From Desulfosarcinaceae bacterium (GTDB taxonomy: Bacteria > Desulfobacterota > Desulfobacteria > Desulfobacterales > Desulfosarcinaceae): a stretch of 44,078 nucleotides of DNA. Positions 935 through 44,078 of the stretch are shown here, in pieces. Each line of letters starts with the position of its first letter. Position 1 is the first letter of the stretch. The position numbers and the translations under genes were made by a program. Under the pieces are notes generated by a model. The model did no database searches, was not told where the DNA came from, and saw only the letters and a list, made by a program, of their open reading frames with translations. Location: contig JASJCL010000055.1 of the NCBI GenBank assembly GCA_030066015.1, positions 1-44,078 of the forward strand, in the 5' to 3' direction.

Positions 935-2737
935 ATGGCGAAAATTAGAACCACATATTTGCGCCAGTCTGTGCGACACATCCGCCCAAGGCCCCTGCTT
1001 TACTGGTTGGGAACTTGTCTGACGACCATTCTCCTGCTCATCTGCACGGATCTCTTCCTCACTACAGACCCACTTTTTGGCGAGAACGGCAGCGCCGGTC
1101 GCATCATCCGCAAGGACCTCGATCAAGACGGTCAAGTGGACCAGGTCGCCCACTACGACGCCAAGGGCAAATTGCGCCTCCTGGAGGTGGACAGCAACGG
1201 CAACGGCATCATGGATCGCTTTCAGCATTACAACGGGCCGGACATGACCCGCGTGGAGGGAGACCTGGATGACGACGGCCGTATCGACATTAAGGATTTT
1301 TATGAAAACGGACGCCGGCACCGTCAAGAGCGGCTCGATCAAAACGGCAACGTCCGTCAAATGGCCATCTTTGACGATGCGGACACACCGCTGCGGGTCG
1401 CCCAGGACACTGATACCGACGGTCGTCTGGATACCGAGTGGCAGTACCGCCGCGGTGAGATCATCACCGCTCAGCGCGATACAGACGGGGATGGAAAGGT
1501 CGATGTGTGGAACGCTTACGAGAACGGCAGGCCGGTGCGTGTCCAACTGGACCAAAACGGCGATGGCCAGCCGGACGCCGAGGTCACCTACGACGCCGAC
1601 GGCAATCCCCAACAGCGTAGCCTCGCCAACGCCGCGCCAGGCGAGGCCGCTTTCGGGGCCGGTCTATCAGTGGCGGCGTCCGCGCCGACAGAGGGGGCCC
1701 CTTCCGGGGCGGACCGTGTCCTGCGACAGGACCGCAACGACGACGGACGACCAGACGTGACCACCTGGATCTCCGCCGGTGTGCGCCGACGACAGGCGCA
1801 GGATACCAACTTCGACGGCCGGGACGACCTTTTTTTCACCTTCGACGAGAAGGGTCTGCTGGCCAAGGCCGAAGTGGACACCCGCCACGACGGGAAAATA
1901 CACCTGATCCGAACCTACGCCGACGAGGCGCCCTTCGAGGACCGGCTGGACAGCGACAATGACGGCCACCTGGATACCGTCGTCAGCTACGAAGCGGGCC
2001 GCATGGTGCGCCAGACGCGCGACAACAATCGGGACGGCAAGCCCGACCTCCACTTCTGGTTCGACCGCGATGGGCAGCGCCGCAAGGTCGAAAGCGATAG
2101 TGACACCGACGGCCGCATCGACACCCGCTATCTCTACGCCGGTGGTACCCTCCAGCAGATGGAGCGCGATGGCGACGGTAACGGTATAACCGAACTGCGC
2201 CTCCTGTATCGGCACAACGAGAAGCGCAAACTTCTCAGCGACCAAGACCAGGACGGCTATTTTGAAACCATCCAATGGTACGCCGTCGCCGGTTGGGAGC
2301 AGGTCGTGGAGGTAGACCAGAACCGGGACGGCATGGCCGAGACGCGCATCTACTACCTCGATAACCGGACAGTCCGCCGCGACCTGGACCGCAACAGCGA
2401 CGGCCGACTGGAGCGGGTGGAGTGGTTCGATCCGGCGGGGGGCGTGAACGACCACCGAGACTGGACCGCAGGGGCGGGAGCGGTGAACATCATCTGGCCG
2501 GTGGGCGACGACGGTCGACCCTTCACCAAAACCCGGGACGAAAACGCCAATGGGCACCCCGACATCTGGGAGCACTTCAGCAACCAGCGTCTCGTCGCAC
2601 GGATGGCGGACCGCAACCACGACGGCCGGCCAGATCTATGGGAACTCTACGCTCCCGCTGCCGAGGGGTCGGCCCTCATCGAGAAACGGCTGGACGAAGA
2701 TTTCGACGGGATCCCCGACGTCAGTTCGCTGCCGTGA
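935..2737 (+). CDS. Membrane-anchored protein with about 20 DxDxDG acidic repeats
   Basis: About 600 residues from the ATG at 935. This start places a single hydrophobic segment (LLYWLGTCLTTILLLICTDLF, described here by its ends LLYW and CTDLF) around residues 20-42, as an uncleaved signal or membrane anchor. The frame is open further upstream to a TTG at 680 that overlaps the previous stop, but that extension is Pro/Arg-rich with no domain features, and neither start has a strong ribosome binding site. After the anchor come about 20 copies of a 20-25 residue unit built on D-x-D/N-x-D/N-G-x-x-D/E followed by an aromatic strand (for example DLDQDGQVD, DTDGDGKVD, DRNHDGRPD). These resemble thrombospondin type 3, dockerin or EF-hand-like calcium loops. 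A likely role is a calcium-stabilised rod or beta-structured domain outside the cytoplasmic membrane. No catalytic domain is visible. Confidence 0.75.
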   Translation: MAKIRTTYLRQSVRHIRPRPLLYWLGTCLTTILLLICTDLFLTTDPLFGENGSAGRIIRKDLDQDGQVDQVAHYDAKGKLRLLEVDSNGNGIMDRFQHYNGPDMTRVEGDLDDDGRIDIKDFYENGRRHRQERLDQNGNVRQMAIFDDADTPLRVAQDTDTDGRLDTEWQYRRGEIITAQRDTDGDGKVDVWNAYENGRPVRVQLDQNGDGQPDAEVTYDADGNPQQRSLANAAPGEAAFGAGLSVAASAPTEGAPSGADRVLRQDRNDDGRPDVTTWISAGVRRRQAQDTNFDGRDDLFFTFDEKGLLAKAEVDTRHDGKIHLIRTYADEAPFEDRLDSDNDGHLDTVVSYEAGRMVRQTRDNNRDGKPDLHFWFDRDGQRRKVESDSDTDGRIDTRYLYAGGTLQQMERDGDGNGITELRLLYRHNEKRKLLSDQDQDGYFETIQWYAVAGWEQVVEVDQNRDGMAETRIYYLDNRTVRRDLDRNSDGRLERVEWFDPAGGVNDHRDWTAGAGAVNIIWPVGDDGRPFTKTRDENANGHPDIWEHFSNQRLVARMADRNHDGRPDLWELYAPAAEGSALIEKRLDEDFDGIPDVSSLP

Positions 2738-2800
2738 ACTCGCCGCAATGCCCCCCATCGCCGCCGCCGCCATCCCACCGACGCCTGTTCCGAAAAACCA

Positions 2801-2829
2801 TTGACGCCCTTTGCCCCTTGCTTTAGGCT
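2801..2829 (+). promoter_or_regulatory. Sigma-70-type promoter candidate for lgt
   Basis: TTGACG at 2801-2806 and TAGGCT at 2824-2829 are separated by 17 bases, in the gap between the repeat protein and lgt. The -35 box is strong and the -10 box matches three of six positions. It would give a leader of about 175 bases before the lgt start at 3012. Confidence 0.4.
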
Positions 2830-3011
2830 GCCATCTTTTGGTGGCACCCACATGGCATCGTGCCCTGCCGCCGTCGATGGGACCAGCCCCCGAGGCTGTC
2901 GGCAGGTGCGTGACAGCCGCATGCCACCGGCTATCAGCCAGCCGGAATCGCCGTCAGACGCGTCAATACCGCACTTGCGAACACCGTTTCTTCATGAGGT
3001 AAGGACCCGCA

Positions 3012-3860
3012 ATGGATTCCTTCTGGCAATGGTGGCAACACCTGCCGTCGACGATTGACCCCGTCATCTTTAGCATCGGCCCTTTCAAGCTGCAGTACTA
3101 CGGCATGATGTACCTGGTGGCTTTCGGCGTGACCTATCTACTGGTGCGCTATCGACTGGCGCGCGAACCGCGCTTCGACCTTTCTCTGGAGTTGGTGCAG
3201 GGGCTCCTCACCGCGATGATCGTCGGTCTCATTCTCGGTGCCCGCCTGGGCTACGTCGCCTTTTACAACGCGGCCTACTACATCGCCCATCCCCTTGAAA
3301 TCTTTCTACCGTTTGACTTTTCAAACGGAATACGCTTTACCGGCATCAGCGGCATGTCCTATCATGGCGGATTGATCGGCGTGATTCTGGCGGCCCTCTA
3401 TTTTACGCGCCGCAACCGGCTTTCCTTCCTGGAGATGGCCGACCTCTTCATCCCAGCCATACCTTTGGGCTATACCTTTGGGCGACTGGGCAATTTTATC
3501 AATGGCGAGCTCTACGGGCGCGTGACCACCGCCAAAATTGGGATGCTCTTTCCCCAGGCCGGGGACGGCCTCATGCGCCACCCGTCCCAGCTCTATGAAG
3601 CCTTCTTCGAAGGCATCGTCCTCTTTGCCCTGCTGTGGTCTCTGCGCCAGCGGGTACGGATGCCGGGCGCACTGCTGGGGATGTATCTCATCGGTTATGG
3701 TGTGGTGCGGTTCTTCATCGAGTATGTCCGGCAGCCCGATGACCACCTGGGACTGGTCTGGCAGACGCTCTCCATGGGCCAGCTGCTCTGCGCCGCGATG
3801 ATCCTGTGTGGGATCGGCGTGTTGGTCTGGGTTGCCAGACGCCGAGAATCGGACGCTTAA
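3012..3860 (+). CDS. lgt: Prolipoprotein diacylglyceryl transferase Lgt
   Basis: Lgt transfers the diacylglyceryl group from phosphatidylglycerol to the lipobox cysteine of prelipoproteins, the first step of lipoprotein maturation in the inner membrane. The 282-residue protein has several hydrophobic helices, and the family signature GRLGNFINGELYGR lies at about residues 157-170, including the functionally important Arg158. The earlier SYHGGLIG segment, with the family's conserved His-Gly, is also present. Length is normal for the family. The ATG at 3012 is preceded by TGAGGTAAGGA a few bases upstream, a reasonable ribosome binding site. cysS starts 16 bases after its stop, so the two are probably co-transcribed. 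A client is encoded in this window: the lipoprotein at 39734. Confidence 0.96.
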   Translation: MDSFWQWWQHLPSTIDPVIFSIGPFKLQYYGMMYLVAFGVTYLLVRYRLAREPRFDLSLELVQGLLTAMIVGLILGARLGYVAFYNAAYYIAHPLEIFLPFDFSNGIRFTGISGMSYHGGLIGVILAALYFTRRNRLSFLEMADLFIPAIPLGYTFGRLGNFINGELYGRVTTAKIGMLFPQAGDGLMRHPSQLYEAFFEGIVLFALLWSLRQRVRMPGALLGMYLIGYGVVRFFIEYVRQPDDHLGLVWQTLSMGQLLCAAMILCGIGVLVWVARRRESDA

Positions 3861-3876
3861 TGCGAGGGAAAGCCAT

Positions 3877-5271
3877 ATGGATCTGAAACTCTACAACACA
3901 CTGACCCGTCGGAAGGAGACCTTCGCGCCCATCATCGCCGGCGAGGTCGGTTTGTACACCTGTGGCCCGACAGTCTACAACTATGCCCATATCGGCAACT
4001 TGCGAACCTATATCTTTGAAGACATTCTCAAACGCGTGCTGTCCTACAATGGCTATCGGGTCAAGCACGTCATGAATATCACGGATGTGGGTCACCTCAC
4101 CGGCGACCGAGATATGGGTGAGGACAAGATGGAGAGAGGCGCCCTGCGGGAAGGCAAATCCGCCTGGGAGATCGCCGCGCACTTCACGGAGGCCTTTCAG
4201 GAAGACCTCAGACGTCTCAATATCGTCGATCCCACCATCTGGTGCCGGGCCACCGACTCCATTGGCGAACAGATCGGCTTGGTCCGCACGCTCGAGGAGA
4301 AGGGCTATACCTACAAAACCGCCGACGGCGTCTACTTCGACACCGCGCGCTTCGCCGACTATACCAAGCTCTCCCGCCAAAATTTGGAGGCCCTTCAGGA
4401 GGGCGCGCGGGTGGAGAAAAACCCCGAGAAGCGCAATCTCACCGATTTCGCCCTTTGGAAATTCTCACCCGAAGAGAGCCAACGTCAGATGGAGTGGAAC
4501 TCGCCGTGGGGAGTGGGCTTTCCCGGCTGGCACATCGAGTGTTCCGCCATGAGCATGAAGTACTTGGGCGATCAATTGGACATTCATTGCGGCGGCACCG
4601 ATCACATTGATGTCCACCACACCAATGAGATCGCCCAAAGCGAAGCCGCCACCGGAAAACCATTCTTCAGGTTCTGGATGCACGGCGCCTTTCTCAACAT
4701 CACCGGTGGGAAAAAAATGGCCAAGAGCAGCGGCGATTTCCTGACGCTCACGGCCACCTTCAACGATCGCGGCATCGATCCCCTGGTCTACCGCTTCGCC
4801 GCCTTTCAGACCCACTATCGAAAACCGATGGAGTACAGCGACGAGGCTGTCCAGGCGGCCCGCAACGGCTACAACCACCTCAAGAACCAGGTGCGCCAGC
4901 TGTTCGACCAAGCCGGTGAATCGACCGGTACCCTGGACAGCGCTGCAAAAAAGCGGTTCCTCACCGCCGTCAACGACGATCTCAACATGCCCCGCGCCAT
5001 GGCCGCTGTTCAGGAAACCCTCAAGAGCGATCTCTCGCCGGCAGACAAGTTGGCCACGATCCTGGATTTCGACCAGGTACTTGGTCTCGGACTGGACACG
5101 GTCGCTGCCGCTGTCGCCCTGCCGACGGAGGTAGCGGCGAAATTGGCCCAACGCCAGCAGGCCCGTGCCGAGAAGAACTGGGGGCTGGCAGACCAGTTGC
5201 GGGAGGAAATCCAGGCCCTGGGATACCAGGTGCAGGACGCCAAGGGGGAGCAGAAAGTCGTTAAAATCTGA
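3877..5271 (+). CDS. cysS: Cysteinyl-tRNA synthetase
   Basis: Charges tRNA-Cys with cysteine; class Ia aminoacyl-tRNA synthetase. The 464-residue product carries the zinc ligand Cys29 in CGPTVYN, the HIGN form of the HIGH motif at residues 38-41, a second zinc ligand Cys222 in WHIECSAMS with the following CGGTDHIDVHHTNE block, and the KMSKS loop as KMAKSSG at about 280. The frame is open further upstream into lgt, but the ATG at 3877 gives the normal family N terminus (MDLKLYNTLTR) and has a GAGGGAAAG ribosome binding site. Length is typical for bacterial CysRS. It sits directly behind lgt and 35 bases before the DisA_N-like gene, so read-through into that pair is possible. Confidence 0.97.
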   Translation: MDLKLYNTLTRRKETFAPIIAGEVGLYTCGPTVYNYAHIGNLRTYIFEDILKRVLSYNGYRVKHVMNITDVGHLTGDRDMGEDKMERGALREGKSAWEIAAHFTEAFQEDLRRLNIVDPTIWCRATDSIGEQIGLVRTLEEKGYTYKTADGVYFDTARFADYTKLSRQNLEALQEGARVEKNPEKRNLTDFALWKFSPEESQRQMEWNSPWGVGFPGWHIECSAMSMKYLGDQLDIHCGGTDHIDVHHTNEIAQSEAATGKPFFRFWMHGAFLNITGGKKMAKSSGDFLTLTATFNDRGIDPLVYRFAAFQTHYRKPMEYSDEAVQAARNGYNHLKNQVRQLFDQAGESTGTLDSAAKKRFLTAVNDDLNMPRAMAAVQETLKSDLSPADKLATILDFDQVLGLGLDTVAAAVALPTEVAAKLAQRQQARAEKNWGLADQLREEIQALGYQVQDAKGEQKVVKI

Positions 5272-5306
5272 TCGCTGAACCCAAAGGTCAGCTCACATGA
5301 GGGGCC

Positions 5307-6758
5307 ATGCCGGCATCCAACGTCAACACATTCGTCCATCAAGTCGTCAGCGACACCCTGGAGGGGTTGCGCGACGGCCTCTCCCACTTTTCCGGCACGA
5401 GCCGTGCGGCAGTGATCTACGCCCTCGAACCCGACGCGCCCCTCATGGTCTGCGATCCTCAGAACCTGCTTCACGGCCATGAGCCCAAGTTTCGGCAGCT
5501 CTATATGGAAGACGCCACTTGGCGGGCGACCGCACCGCCGGAGGAGGACCGTCTCAAATATGATCGTATCCTGGCCGAAACCAACCTGGGTCTGGCCGGC
5601 CTGATCTCATTCGGCGGCCGTTCCAGTTCCGTCTACTATCAGATGTGGTTCACTGAACACCATCCCGACATGTGTTCGGTGGGCCCGACCGAACGCTGGC
5701 TGGAGCACGCCACCTGGCGATTCTCCCATGACATCGCCAATGGCAGCGACCTCTACACCGGCATATCGGGCAGTTTTTTGCGCGAATACGCCACCCATGC
5801 GGTGCGCGATCACATCGTCGACGATATCAATCTCAAACTGGGATGGGACTCACCCATGCGGGTCTATCCGATCCTGGACGCCGTGCTGGGGATCTCAAAC
5901 GCCCGCGAGGAGGGTGCCTGGCCGCGGGGGGAGCTGCTTTTCAGTGAACCGCGTTTCCAGCACACCATCTCCTTTGTCGCCCGTTTCCGCCCCAGCGAGC
6001 AGCCCCAACTCAACAACCACAAGCACGTCTGCAAGCTGCTGCAGGCGGTCACAGGATCACCCCGCAAATTGGTCTCCGATGGGCAGACCATCCTGGGCAT
6101 CACCAACGGTGACCTGCCCCTCTTCTGCCTGCTGGCCGATTTCCGCGGTCCGCATGGGTTTCTCAAAATCAATGAAGAAATCGTCTGCAGCTTCTGCGAC
6201 GGCAGCTTCCAGTCCACCACCCACCAGGCCAAGATGGTTCAACTGGAGGAACTGCTCTTAGAGAGCAACCTCGAACCAGAAATCGGTGGGGCCCTCTTCC
6301 GCACCGTGGCCCACCTGGCGCGCCATGCCCAGACCCAGAAACACGGCTGCACCCTGGTGATCGACCTCAACGATAAGCCGGTGCGGATCTCCGGCCAGAC
6401 CCTCGAGCAGCCTCTCGATCTGCTTCAGCCCCACCTGCTCGACCTGGCCAAATCGCTCACCAAGGTGGATGGCGCCCTGCACCTCACCACCGGGTTCCGC
6501 CTCCAGGGCTTCGGCTGTCTTCTCGACGGCCGCACCATCCCCGGCGAGGATCTCTCCCGGGGCGCCCGTTACAACTCCGCCTTGCGCTTCTCCGCCGAAC
6601 ACCGCAACATCATCGTCGTGGTCGTCTCCGCCGACCGCCCGGTGGCCGTCATCCAGGAGGGCGTCGAAATTTCCGCCCAATGCGTGTGGCAACCCCTGAG
6701 CGGCTACGCTTTCGAGCCCGAACCCCTCACTTCCTTCGTGGAACGGGCCCATGGCTGA
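5307..6758 (+). CDS. DisA_N (diadenylate cyclase)-like domain protein with altered active-site motif
   Basis: A 483-residue soluble protein. The C-terminal part, roughly residues 330-475, resembles the diadenylate cyclase fold (DisA_N/DAC, makers of cyclic di-AMP). The DGA motif is present at residues 388-390. About 30 residues later comes GARYNSALRFS (419-429), where true enzymes have GTRHRAA-; the following strand IIVVVVSADRPVAVIQEG also matches the DAC core. The RHR catalytic/ATP-binding triplet is therefore RYN, so activity may be lost or changed. Residues 1-320 do not match anything I can name; they may be one of the accessory sensor modules that precede some DAC domains. The stop overlaps the start of the RNase M5-like gene by 8 bases, so the two are translationally coupled. 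Domain call is good, function uncertain. Confidence 0.7.
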   Translation: MPASNVNTFVHQVVSDTLEGLRDGLSHFSGTSRAAVIYALEPDAPLMVCDPQNLLHGHEPKFRQLYMEDATWRATAPPEEDRLKYDRILAETNLGLAGLISFGGRSSSVYYQMWFTEHHPDMCSVGPTERWLEHATWRFSHDIANGSDLYTGISGSFLREYATHAVRDHIVDDINLKLGWDSPMRVYPILDAVLGISNAREEGAWPRGELLFSEPRFQHTISFVARFRPSEQPQLNNHKHVCKLLQAVTGSPRKLVSDGQTILGITNGDLPLFCLLADFRGPHGFLKINEEIVCSFCDGSFQSTTHQAKMVQLEELLLESNLEPEIGGALFRTVAHLARHAQTQKHGCTLVIDLNDKPVRISGQTLEQPLDLLQPHLLDLAKSLTKVDGALHLTTGFRLQGFGCLLDGRTIPGEDLSRGARYNSALRFSAEHRNIIVVVVSADRPVAVIQEGVEISAQCVWQPLSGYAFEPEPLTSFVERAHG

Positions 6759-7350
6759 GCGCGGCGACTCCCGCTCCCCACGCCCACTGATGCTGGAGCA
6801 CATCGTCGTCGAAGGCCGCGCCGACGAGCGTGCCGTCAAGGCTGCCGTAGATGCCGAGGTGATCGTCACCAGCGGCTACGGCATCACGCGGGTCACCTGG
6901 GAACGCATCGCAGCCGCCGTCCATCGCACCGGTGTCATCCTCTTCACCGATCCCGATGCCGCCGGCGAACAGATCCGCCGCACCATCAACCAGCGCATCC
7001 CCGGTTGCAAGAACGCCTACCTCACCCGTGATGAAGCGTATCGCCAAGGCAACATCGGCATCGAGAATGCCCGGCCGGCCGCTATCCAAAACGCCCTGCA
7101 CAACGCCCATGGCACCGCTCTCCGGGCGGGTCGAAACGCCTTCACCCTCAGCGATCTTCAGCGCCACCAGCTCATCGCCCATCCCCGGGCGGCCCGCCGC
7201 CGGGAAGCCCTCGGCCGCCACCTGCGCATCGGCTACGCCAACGCCAAACAGCTTCTGCGGCGCCTCAACCACAGCGGCATCAGCCGCCGGCAATTCGAGG
7301 CGGCGGCAGCGGCAGTCGCAGCGGAGATCGCACCCGGCGCCAAGGGTTGA
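6751..7350 (+). CDS. rnmV: RNase M5-like Toprim protein
   Basis: RNase M5 trims the 5S rRNA precursor by cutting both strands of a flanking duplex; it is best known from Firmicutes. The 199-residue product has an N-terminal Toprim domain: the catalytic glutamate Glu21 in IVVEGRADE, a TSGYGI strand, and the DPD motif in LFTDPDAAGEQIR (Asp67, Asp69). These are followed by RIPGCKNAYL and the GNIGIENARPAAI block typical of M5 rather than of primase or topoisomerase. The C-terminal half, HQLIAHPRAARRREALGRHL onward, resembles the M5 C-terminal RNA-binding region. The start overlaps the DisA_N-like gene by 8 bases. A 5S gene lies at the other end of this window. Other small Toprim nucleases are possible but fit less well. 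Confidence 0.82.
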   Translation: MAERGDSRSPRPLMLEHIVVEGRADERAVKAAVDAEVIVTSGYGITRVTWERIAAAVHRTGVILFTDPDAAGEQIRRTINQRIPGCKNAYLTRDEAYRQGNIGIENARPAAIQNALHNAHGTALRAGRNAFTLSDLQRHQLIAHPRAARRREALGRHLRIGYANAKQLLRRLNHSGISRRQFEAAAAAVAAEIAPGAKG

Positions 7351-43575: not shown

Positions 43576-43691
<116 letters not shown>

Positions 43692-43768
43692 AATAGCATC
43701 TTTTCGGCATTCAATTTGAATCAGATGAAAGCGTTACTTGGTCTAAGCGCTTATGTTACTTATTTTGT

Positions 43769-44078
<310 letters not shown>

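Follow-up and report, generated by a model that had tools for sequence, protein, structure and literature searches.

The locus described here raises the question whether a diadenylate cyclase (DAC) that has lost the RHR triplet, currently treated as a requirement for synthesis of cyclic di-AMP (c-di-AMP), is a decayed enzyme, a nucleotide receptor or a working variant. It is situated in a stretch of 44,078 nucleotides from a Desulfosarcinaceae bacterium (GenBank assembly GCA_030066015.1, contig JASJCL010000055.1, positions 1 to 44,078, forward strand), which we refer to as the window. A gene at positions 5307-6758 encodes a protein of 483 residues in which RYN takes the place of RHR, and its end overlaps the start of a gene for RNase M5. 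From the sequence alone, the original prediction had proposed an inactive nucleotide sensor, or a protein making or binding another nucleotide, that could tie 5S rRNA maturation to a nucleotide signal. Our analysis identifies the protein as an R-[YF]-N-type DAC with sensor domains that are already catalogued. Its motif links it to phage defence, and the connection with RNase M5 leads nowhere.

Domain architecture and fold

The two motifs had been read correctly: DGA at residues 388-390 and GARYNSA, in place of GTRHRAA, at residues 419-425. That account covered the C-terminal DAC domain only. Two additional domains, DACND and DACNH, were found by Pfam, resulting in the following arrangement of the protein and its motifs.

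5307-6758, plus strand: DACND-DACNH-DAC protein (R-[YF]-N-type DAC), 483 aa, from the list of open reading frames and Pfam domains
5331-5846, plus strand: N-terminal domain DACND, probably a sensor (residues 9-180; Pfam PF21749, 273.8 bits)
5865-6188, plus strand: middle domain DACNH, probably also a sensor (residues 187-294; Pfam PF21750, 100.7 bits)
6324-6662, plus strand: DAC domain, residues 340-452 (Pfam PF02457, 42.5 bits, cut-off 27; DAC fold)
6468-6476, plus strand: DGA motif, residues 388-390 (sequence and homologue alignment)
6558-6590, plus strand: RGARYNSALRF, residues 418-428, at the place of the canonical xGTRHRAA (sequence and alignments)
6627-6635, plus strand: S441-x-D443, at the position equivalent to SEE of CdaA (homologue alignment)

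Beyond these three domains, the Pfam scan of the protein found no further domain at E 1. The order DACND-DACNH-DAC is already catalogued in Pfam and the window protein is one member of this group. The architecture is probably also described in an article by Galperin from 2023 (All DACs in a row). A literature search with the domain names DACND and DACNH gave no match.

The structure comparison called for in the original prediction supports its DAC-like C-terminal core. An AlphaFold2 model, derived from the window protein and 23 homologues, had a mean predicted local distance difference test score (pLDDT) of 78.7. The best 50 of 427 Foldseek matches to it were all DAC structures (E 6.0e-05 to 1.2e-03), and the matches include 2fb5, which is a DAC structure (PMC8573169). 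In VIA-align the top 40 of 50 entries were DAC structures with Z of 10.5-13.3, followed by a row with Z 7.9. In this predicted model, residues 321-456 matched 8c4n_B (Z 13.3, root mean square deviation (rmsd) 3.9, 124 aligned residues) and residues 317-456 matched 7dfx_B (Z 12.9, rmsd 2.8, 128 aligned residues). Because the structure matches at Z 10.5-13.3 are DAC entries, the C-terminal domain as modelled has the DAC fold. Despite this match, nothing relevant was found when PDB sequences were searched with a profile of the family alignment (best E 0.79). For DACND (residues 1-185) an alpha/beta fold is predicted that weakly resembles MglB, the Rag roadblock and the DosS GAF domain (best Z 7.8, no row reaching 8). 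In the whole model the roadblock/GAF likeness had Z 7.9; it is a hint and may reflect a common arrangement alone.

Conservation of the R-[YF]-N motif

Homologues were derived from a scan of genome contigs and from profile searches of sampled genomes. The scan contributed 26 loci with best-segment identities of 38-63%, mostly from Desulfo- or Deltaproteobacteria and one from Candidatus Tectomicrobia. In total, 96 loci yielded 98 open frames of the family, 92 of which contain the motif. The other six end short of it (L026, L030, L038, the first frame of L092, L098 and L102) and are outside the set of 83 distinct sequences, window protein included, to which the 92 frames correspond. The motif pattern applied to the 83 requires G-x-R and a later R-[FY]; all 92 frames also pass a stricter pattern, and no long frame failed.

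RHR was found in none of the 83 distinct sequences, of which 43 carry R-F-N and 40 R-Y-N. Every one of them has an Arg directly before the motif Gly (R418 in the window protein) and S-x-D at the SEE position of CdaA, and S441 and D443 were invariant in 24 out of 24 aligned sequences. DGA was present in 81 out of 83, with DGG and DGS in one each. The window protein keeps the Asp of DGA, R421, N423, S441 and D443. RYN instead of RHR is therefore a genuine and conserved departure, as all 83 sequences carry R-[YF]-N. Searches of the literature with RYN and RFN motif phrases gave no match; the motif may have been published before, for example in the Galperin article. Two DACND frames (G281:C101 and G393:C150) contain one in-frame stop each.

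Comparison with other DACs

Like DisA and CdaA (PF02457), the window protein shows the DAC fold and the DGA motif. In contrast to these proteins, it carries R-[YF]-N for RHR, and its DAC domain is C-terminal behind DACND-DACNH. Hence, of the two features of a canonical c-di-AMP synthase, DGA is present and RHR is absent. In the same genome, C68 and C90 carry the two other DAC genes, with the motifs GTRHRAA and GMRHRAA.

A set of 36 aligned DACs from outside the DACNH group comprised 29 of the CdaA type, 1 of the DisA type, 1 DACNV, 2 DacZ_P, 1 linked to a phosphoribosyltransferase and 2 divergent proteins. Neither Asn at the third place of the triplet nor Arg before the Gly occurred in any of the 36, of which the 29 CdaA rows had been chosen by a pattern requiring RHR. 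When the best 30 DAC loci were read again without this requirement, all 30 showed G-[TA]-R-H-R. The two divergent DACs carry RHQ. In the DACs linked to DacZ_P (L142 and L143, from G013 and G056) RHR is replaced by RHM and RHH. In another case (L136, positions 419-2179, from G039) a phosphoribosyltransferase-like domain and a DAC domain share one frame, and the motif reads R-K-E. R427, an Arg located eight positions behind the Gly, does not set the R-[YF]-N group apart, as it is also found in the DisA-type row and in L136.

All 36 DACNH rows of the alignment carry R-G-x-R-[YFL]-N. A tree calculated without the motif columns places the 36 R-[YFL]-N rows on one side of a branch with support 97/89; L141 and L002, which are very long, and 14 CdaA rows are likewise absent from this tree. 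In the tree of all 72 rows, the RHR protein L141 is placed among the R-[YFL]-N rows, with a branch length of 4.44 changes. L138, which has no readable motif, and the RHR proteins L139, L118 and L119 are not part of the trees. A single origin of the R-[YFL]-N rows is likely, not proved, because the trees are unrooted and the program warns of long branches meeting.

Relatives on plasmids and in DS-2 phage defence

Apart from one chance-level match, the only NCBIfam model matching the window protein was NF053872 (DS2_3_antiphage, the third DS-2 protein), with 70.7 bits and best over residues 333-449. With a cut-off of 630 bits for this model, the assignment of the window protein as a DS-2 DAC was rejected. 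Motifs swapped into the window DAC scored 57.1 (RYN), 55.7 (RFN), 53.3 (RHN), 51.7 (RYR) and 47.9 bits (RHR) with NF053872, and 50.7 (RHR), 49.1 (RHN), 47.5 (RYR) and 45.9 bits (RYN) with the Pfam DAC profile. Thus, NF053872 favours RYN over RHR and Pfam DAC does the reverse.

A tblastn search of 72,556 plasmid records with the DAC domain resulted in 5 records at E <=10. Three of the proteins found gave 7, 7 and 8 records when used as queries. No phage record matched the DAC domain. We read seven plasmid proteins, leaving out a Rhizobium plasmid record that covered 15% of the query. All seven carry the Arg before the Gly, six of them R-[YF]-N and one, from Phycisphaera (L160), R-L-N. In the six plasmid proteins analyzed by Pfam (all but L161) DACNH was always present, in four cases preceded by DACNG, and the DAC profile was over its cut-off in four. 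The annotation 'diadenylate cyclase' is attached to five of the seven; a test of that activity was not found in the literature.

Two of the plasmid DACs exceed the cut-off of NF053872, one from Gluconobacter (L155, 3873-5645, 712.2 bits) and one from Citrobacter (L159, 4596-6341, 803.8 bits). Their motifs are RGARYNSAVRY and RGSRYNSGVRY. The adjoining nucleotidyltransferases pass NF053871 (454.3 bits in L155 and 468.2 bits in L159, cut-off 350). Of the two phospholipases, that of Citrobacter exceeds the NF053870 cut-off (509.6 bits against 400), and that of Gluconobacter is a patatin according to Pfam. All three Citrobacter genes have the same orientation; the Gluconobacter DAC gene lies on the opposite strand. 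A SMODS nucleotidyltransferase is encoded near the DAC of a Priestia plasmid (L158), and within the stretches retrieved no annotated nucleotidyltransferase was found for L156, L157, L160 and L161. On the Priestia plasmid of L156 an R-F-N DAC (1858-3372) adjoins cytosine methyltransferase and restriction genes and not a cyclic oligonucleotide-based antiphage signalling system (CBASS). The R-L-N protein of Phycisphaera (3989-5815) is of the DACNG-DACNH type, with copper-resistance genes downstream.

The DefensePredictor paper reports that two residues predicted to be catalytic in the DS-2 DAC were mutated and that each change eliminated defence (PMC13092281). Hence, one DAC of the DS-2 family is required in vivo. 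Of 30 homologues, 15 are located beside CBASS, and Galperin 2023 is cited there for the association of DACs with CBASS (PMC13092281). Like the window protein, the DS-2 DACs carry R-Y-N in a DAC-like region behind DACNH, and in the tree they belong to one group with it. They differ from it by DACNG instead of DACND at the N-terminus, by DGT, and by a patatin phospholipase and a nucleotidyltransferase encoded beside them. In the window genome no SMODS match was found at E 0.001 (other families of cGAS/DncV-like nucleotidyltransferases were not searched), and PADLOC gave no match for the DAC protein. No CBASS partner gene adjoins the window DAC gene, whose nearest neighbours according to Pfam and NCBIfam encode Lgt, CysS and RNase M5. 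Because of this neighbourhood and the lack of a SMODS match, the chromosomal R-[YF]-N form does not look like part of a CBASS.

Possible activity of the R-[YF]-N proteins

On balance, the window protein appears to be a sensor-controlled variant of the DAC type that binds nucleotides and makes a dinucleotide beside ordinary DACs, and whose overlap with RNase M5 involves no shared pathway. DACND and DACNH would sense a cue and control the pairing of the C-terminal DAC domains. The pocket belongs to a group whose triplet changed from RHR to R-[YF]-N and gained an Arg directly ahead of it (R418), with the DGA Asp, the first triplet Arg and an acidic residue at the metal site retained. Nucleotide binding would most likely be retained, and the joining of nucleotides into a dinucleotide signal, either c-di-AMP or a related one, probably so.

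Leptospira interrogans CdaA tolerates the loss of neither D172 in DGA nor R203 in GXRHRXA, and S222 is required only in part (PMC12974146). Judged from its place in the motif, D388 corresponds to D172, and R421 probably corresponds to R203, presumably the first Arg of the triplet; in Bacillus subtilis CdaA the triplet is numbered R203-H-R (PMC8573169). The His and the second Arg, those replaced here, were tested only within changes of the whole triplet (PMC3328451, PMC4568413). Because the singly required residues are kept and the other two were tested in this way only, catalysis is somewhat more likely than a dead receptor, by a small margin. Furthermore, R-[YF]-N marks a maintained and probably working variant pocket and not decay, since it is fixed in the family and common to phage-defence proteins, and since DS-2 defence needs residues of its DAC.

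The protein seems to be an addition to the usual DAC complement. DAC was found in 104 out of 118 genomes sampled from the phylum, and all 10 genomes carrying DACND in this sample have a stronger DAC match elsewhere. The window genome contains three DAC genes. The R-[YF]-N protein is thus an extra DAC and would work beside the two ordinary DACs of the cell.

Several observations weigh against an active cyclase or against its comparison with DS-2. Changing RHR to AAA ended ATP binding and c-di-AMP synthesis in Mycobacterium tuberculosis DacA (PMC3328451) and abolished c-di-AMP synthesis in Bacillus thuringiensis CdaS (PMC4568413). As this change inactivates the tested DACs and two of the three residues differ here, synthesis of c-di-AMP may have been lost. 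The loop before the motif (residues 410-419) has a pLDDT below 50, which makes the model unsuitable for judging the pocket. Both DS-2 DACs, L155 and L159, carry DGT instead of DGA, and the Pfam DAC profile gave no match at E 0.01 in L159, the Citrobacter DS-2 protein, and in L160. The DS-2 comparison was made with relatives of the mutated DAC, and the available part of the text names neither the mutated residues nor the product (PMC13092281). No assay, ligand or product for the R-[YF]-N group was found in the literature. A strict comparison of neighbours at 24 loci found no partner gene common to the family. The most widespread neighbour family occurred at 10 of the 24 loci, and the families listed recur within one overlapping set of loci alone. 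A looser comparison of 25 loci and the window resulted in a long list dominated by antisense frames.

A less probable but serious alternative is a pseudo-cyclase, in which the DAC domain acts as a receptor whose ligand is ATP, c-di-AMP or some other nucleotide supplied by the canonical DACs, and signals via the N-terminal domains or a partner. It agrees with the replacement of two residues of a triplet that was needed as a whole in the tested DACs, and the two DAC genes with GTRHR and GMRHR in the same genome could supply a ligand. The strong conservation of the pocket would be required of a receptor as well. However, the window protein retains the residues singly required in a CdaA, an Asp and probably the first Arg, and DS-2 defence needs predicted catalytic DAC residues (PMC13092281), although loss of ligand binding would explain that result equally well. 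The inactive nucleotide sensor of the original prediction is thus weakened as to its inactivity, both by the kept residues D388, R421, N423, S441 and D443 and by the DS-2 requirement (PMC13092281).

A c-di-AMP synthase of the ordinary kind, with Y/F and N in the roles of H and R and the product unchanged, is rather unlikely. The third place of the triplet does vary elsewhere, as in the RHM, RHH and RHQ proteins mentioned above. Evidence of activity for these variants was not found in the literature, however, and in the R-[YF]-N group the His and the second Arg are both changed and fixed. Doubtful to a similar degree is a more far-reaching proposal, according to which the R-[YF]-N DACs would be a separate class of signal synthases making a dinucleotide other than c-di-AMP, with the chromosomal DACND form serving sulfate reducers as a resident signalling enzyme and the DACNG form taken up by CBASS DS-2 as its second cyclase. 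If this were true, DS-2 phage defence would have two different signals.

A fixed R-[YF]-N group with one branch in DAC-dependent phage defence means either that the full RHR is dispensable or that a different nucleotide is produced or recognized by the DAC fold. The product of these DACs bears on signalling in sulfate reducers and on the question of two cyclases in one CBASS, which the DefensePredictor paper leaves open (PMC13092281).

The RNase M5 neighbour

The genes on both sides of the DAC gene and the overlap at its end are as follows.

3808-5271, plus strand: cysteinyl-tRNA synthetase (CysS), 35 nt upstream of the DAC gene and on the same strand
6751-6758, plus strand: 8-nt overlap of the DAC stop and the RNase M5 start, ATGGCTGA (sequence read)
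6751-7350, plus strand: RNase M5, Toprim + DUF4093, 199 aa (TIGR00334, 128.3 bits; Pfam)

The overlap of 8 bases was seen correctly in the original prediction, positions 6751-6758 being shared by both genes. The neighbour described there as RNase M5-like is a full member of the family, as it exceeds the TIGR00334 cut-off of 110.65 bits and contains both Toprim and DUF4093. In PADLOC it matches mad4 (E 0.00057).

The distribution of both genes was determined in sampled, often incomplete genomes of the family (30), order (194) and phylum (247), counting DACND at E 0.001 and M5 over the TIGR00334 cut-off. DACND was found in 12 out of 30, 57 out of 194 (56 over cut-off) and 17 out of 247 genomes, and M5 in 2, 7 and 4, respectively. 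In the family sample only the window genome has both. Three other genomes of the order sample contain both, about 473 kb apart in G161, about 1.0 Mb apart in G406 and on different contigs in G422, where the open frame following the DAC gene is not M5. In G258 a partial M5 match below the cut-off is located on another contig than DACND. Hence, among the DACND-bearing genomes of the three samples, M5 adjoins the DAC gene only in the window genome.

Searches of individual loci gave the same picture. Neither tblastn of 26 related loci nor phmmer of 20 further loci detected M5. Some of the 26 loci stop shortly behind the DAC gene; loci of this kind (L005, L026 and L030) are uninformative on the downstream gene. 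Conversely, eight other M5 loci, two of them on contigs below 4 kb, gave no DAC match, and in G452, which has M5 and no DACND, the 14-kb stretch around M5 contained no match to cysS, lgt or DAC. A frame of at least 90 aa follows the DAC gene within reach at 39 out of 89 loci, a number that includes repeats of one place such as the window itself and L034. As judged by eye from their first residues, these frames are of many kinds.

Thus, M5 is patchy in the phylum and without a conserved link to DAC, and the overlap is probably incidental. It is a local join that may give co-translation, probably in this lineage only and with no shared pathway; given the incomplete genomes, there may be a rare second DAC-M5 pair. 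A functional module tying 5S rRNA maturation to a nucleotide signal is very improbable: the 8-nt overlap on the same strand and the full family membership of M5 agree with it, but the pairing, whose absence from related genomes had been set beforehand as the observation to refute it, has no second adjacent case in the family, order and phylum samples, and the downstream frames differ among relatives. As to the statement that no description of such a pair was known, no paper joining RNase M5 and diadenylate was found, and the domain architecture of the DAC protein itself proved to be already in Pfam.

A 5S rRNA gene (43576-43692, minus strand) and the 3'-end of a 23S rRNA gene (43767-44078, minus strand) are located at the contig end, about 36 kb from the M5 gene. 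When the 5S sequence was folded with 40 nt on each side, a pairing of 4 bp between the flanks extended the terminal stem, and a strong hairpin was found 3' of the gene.

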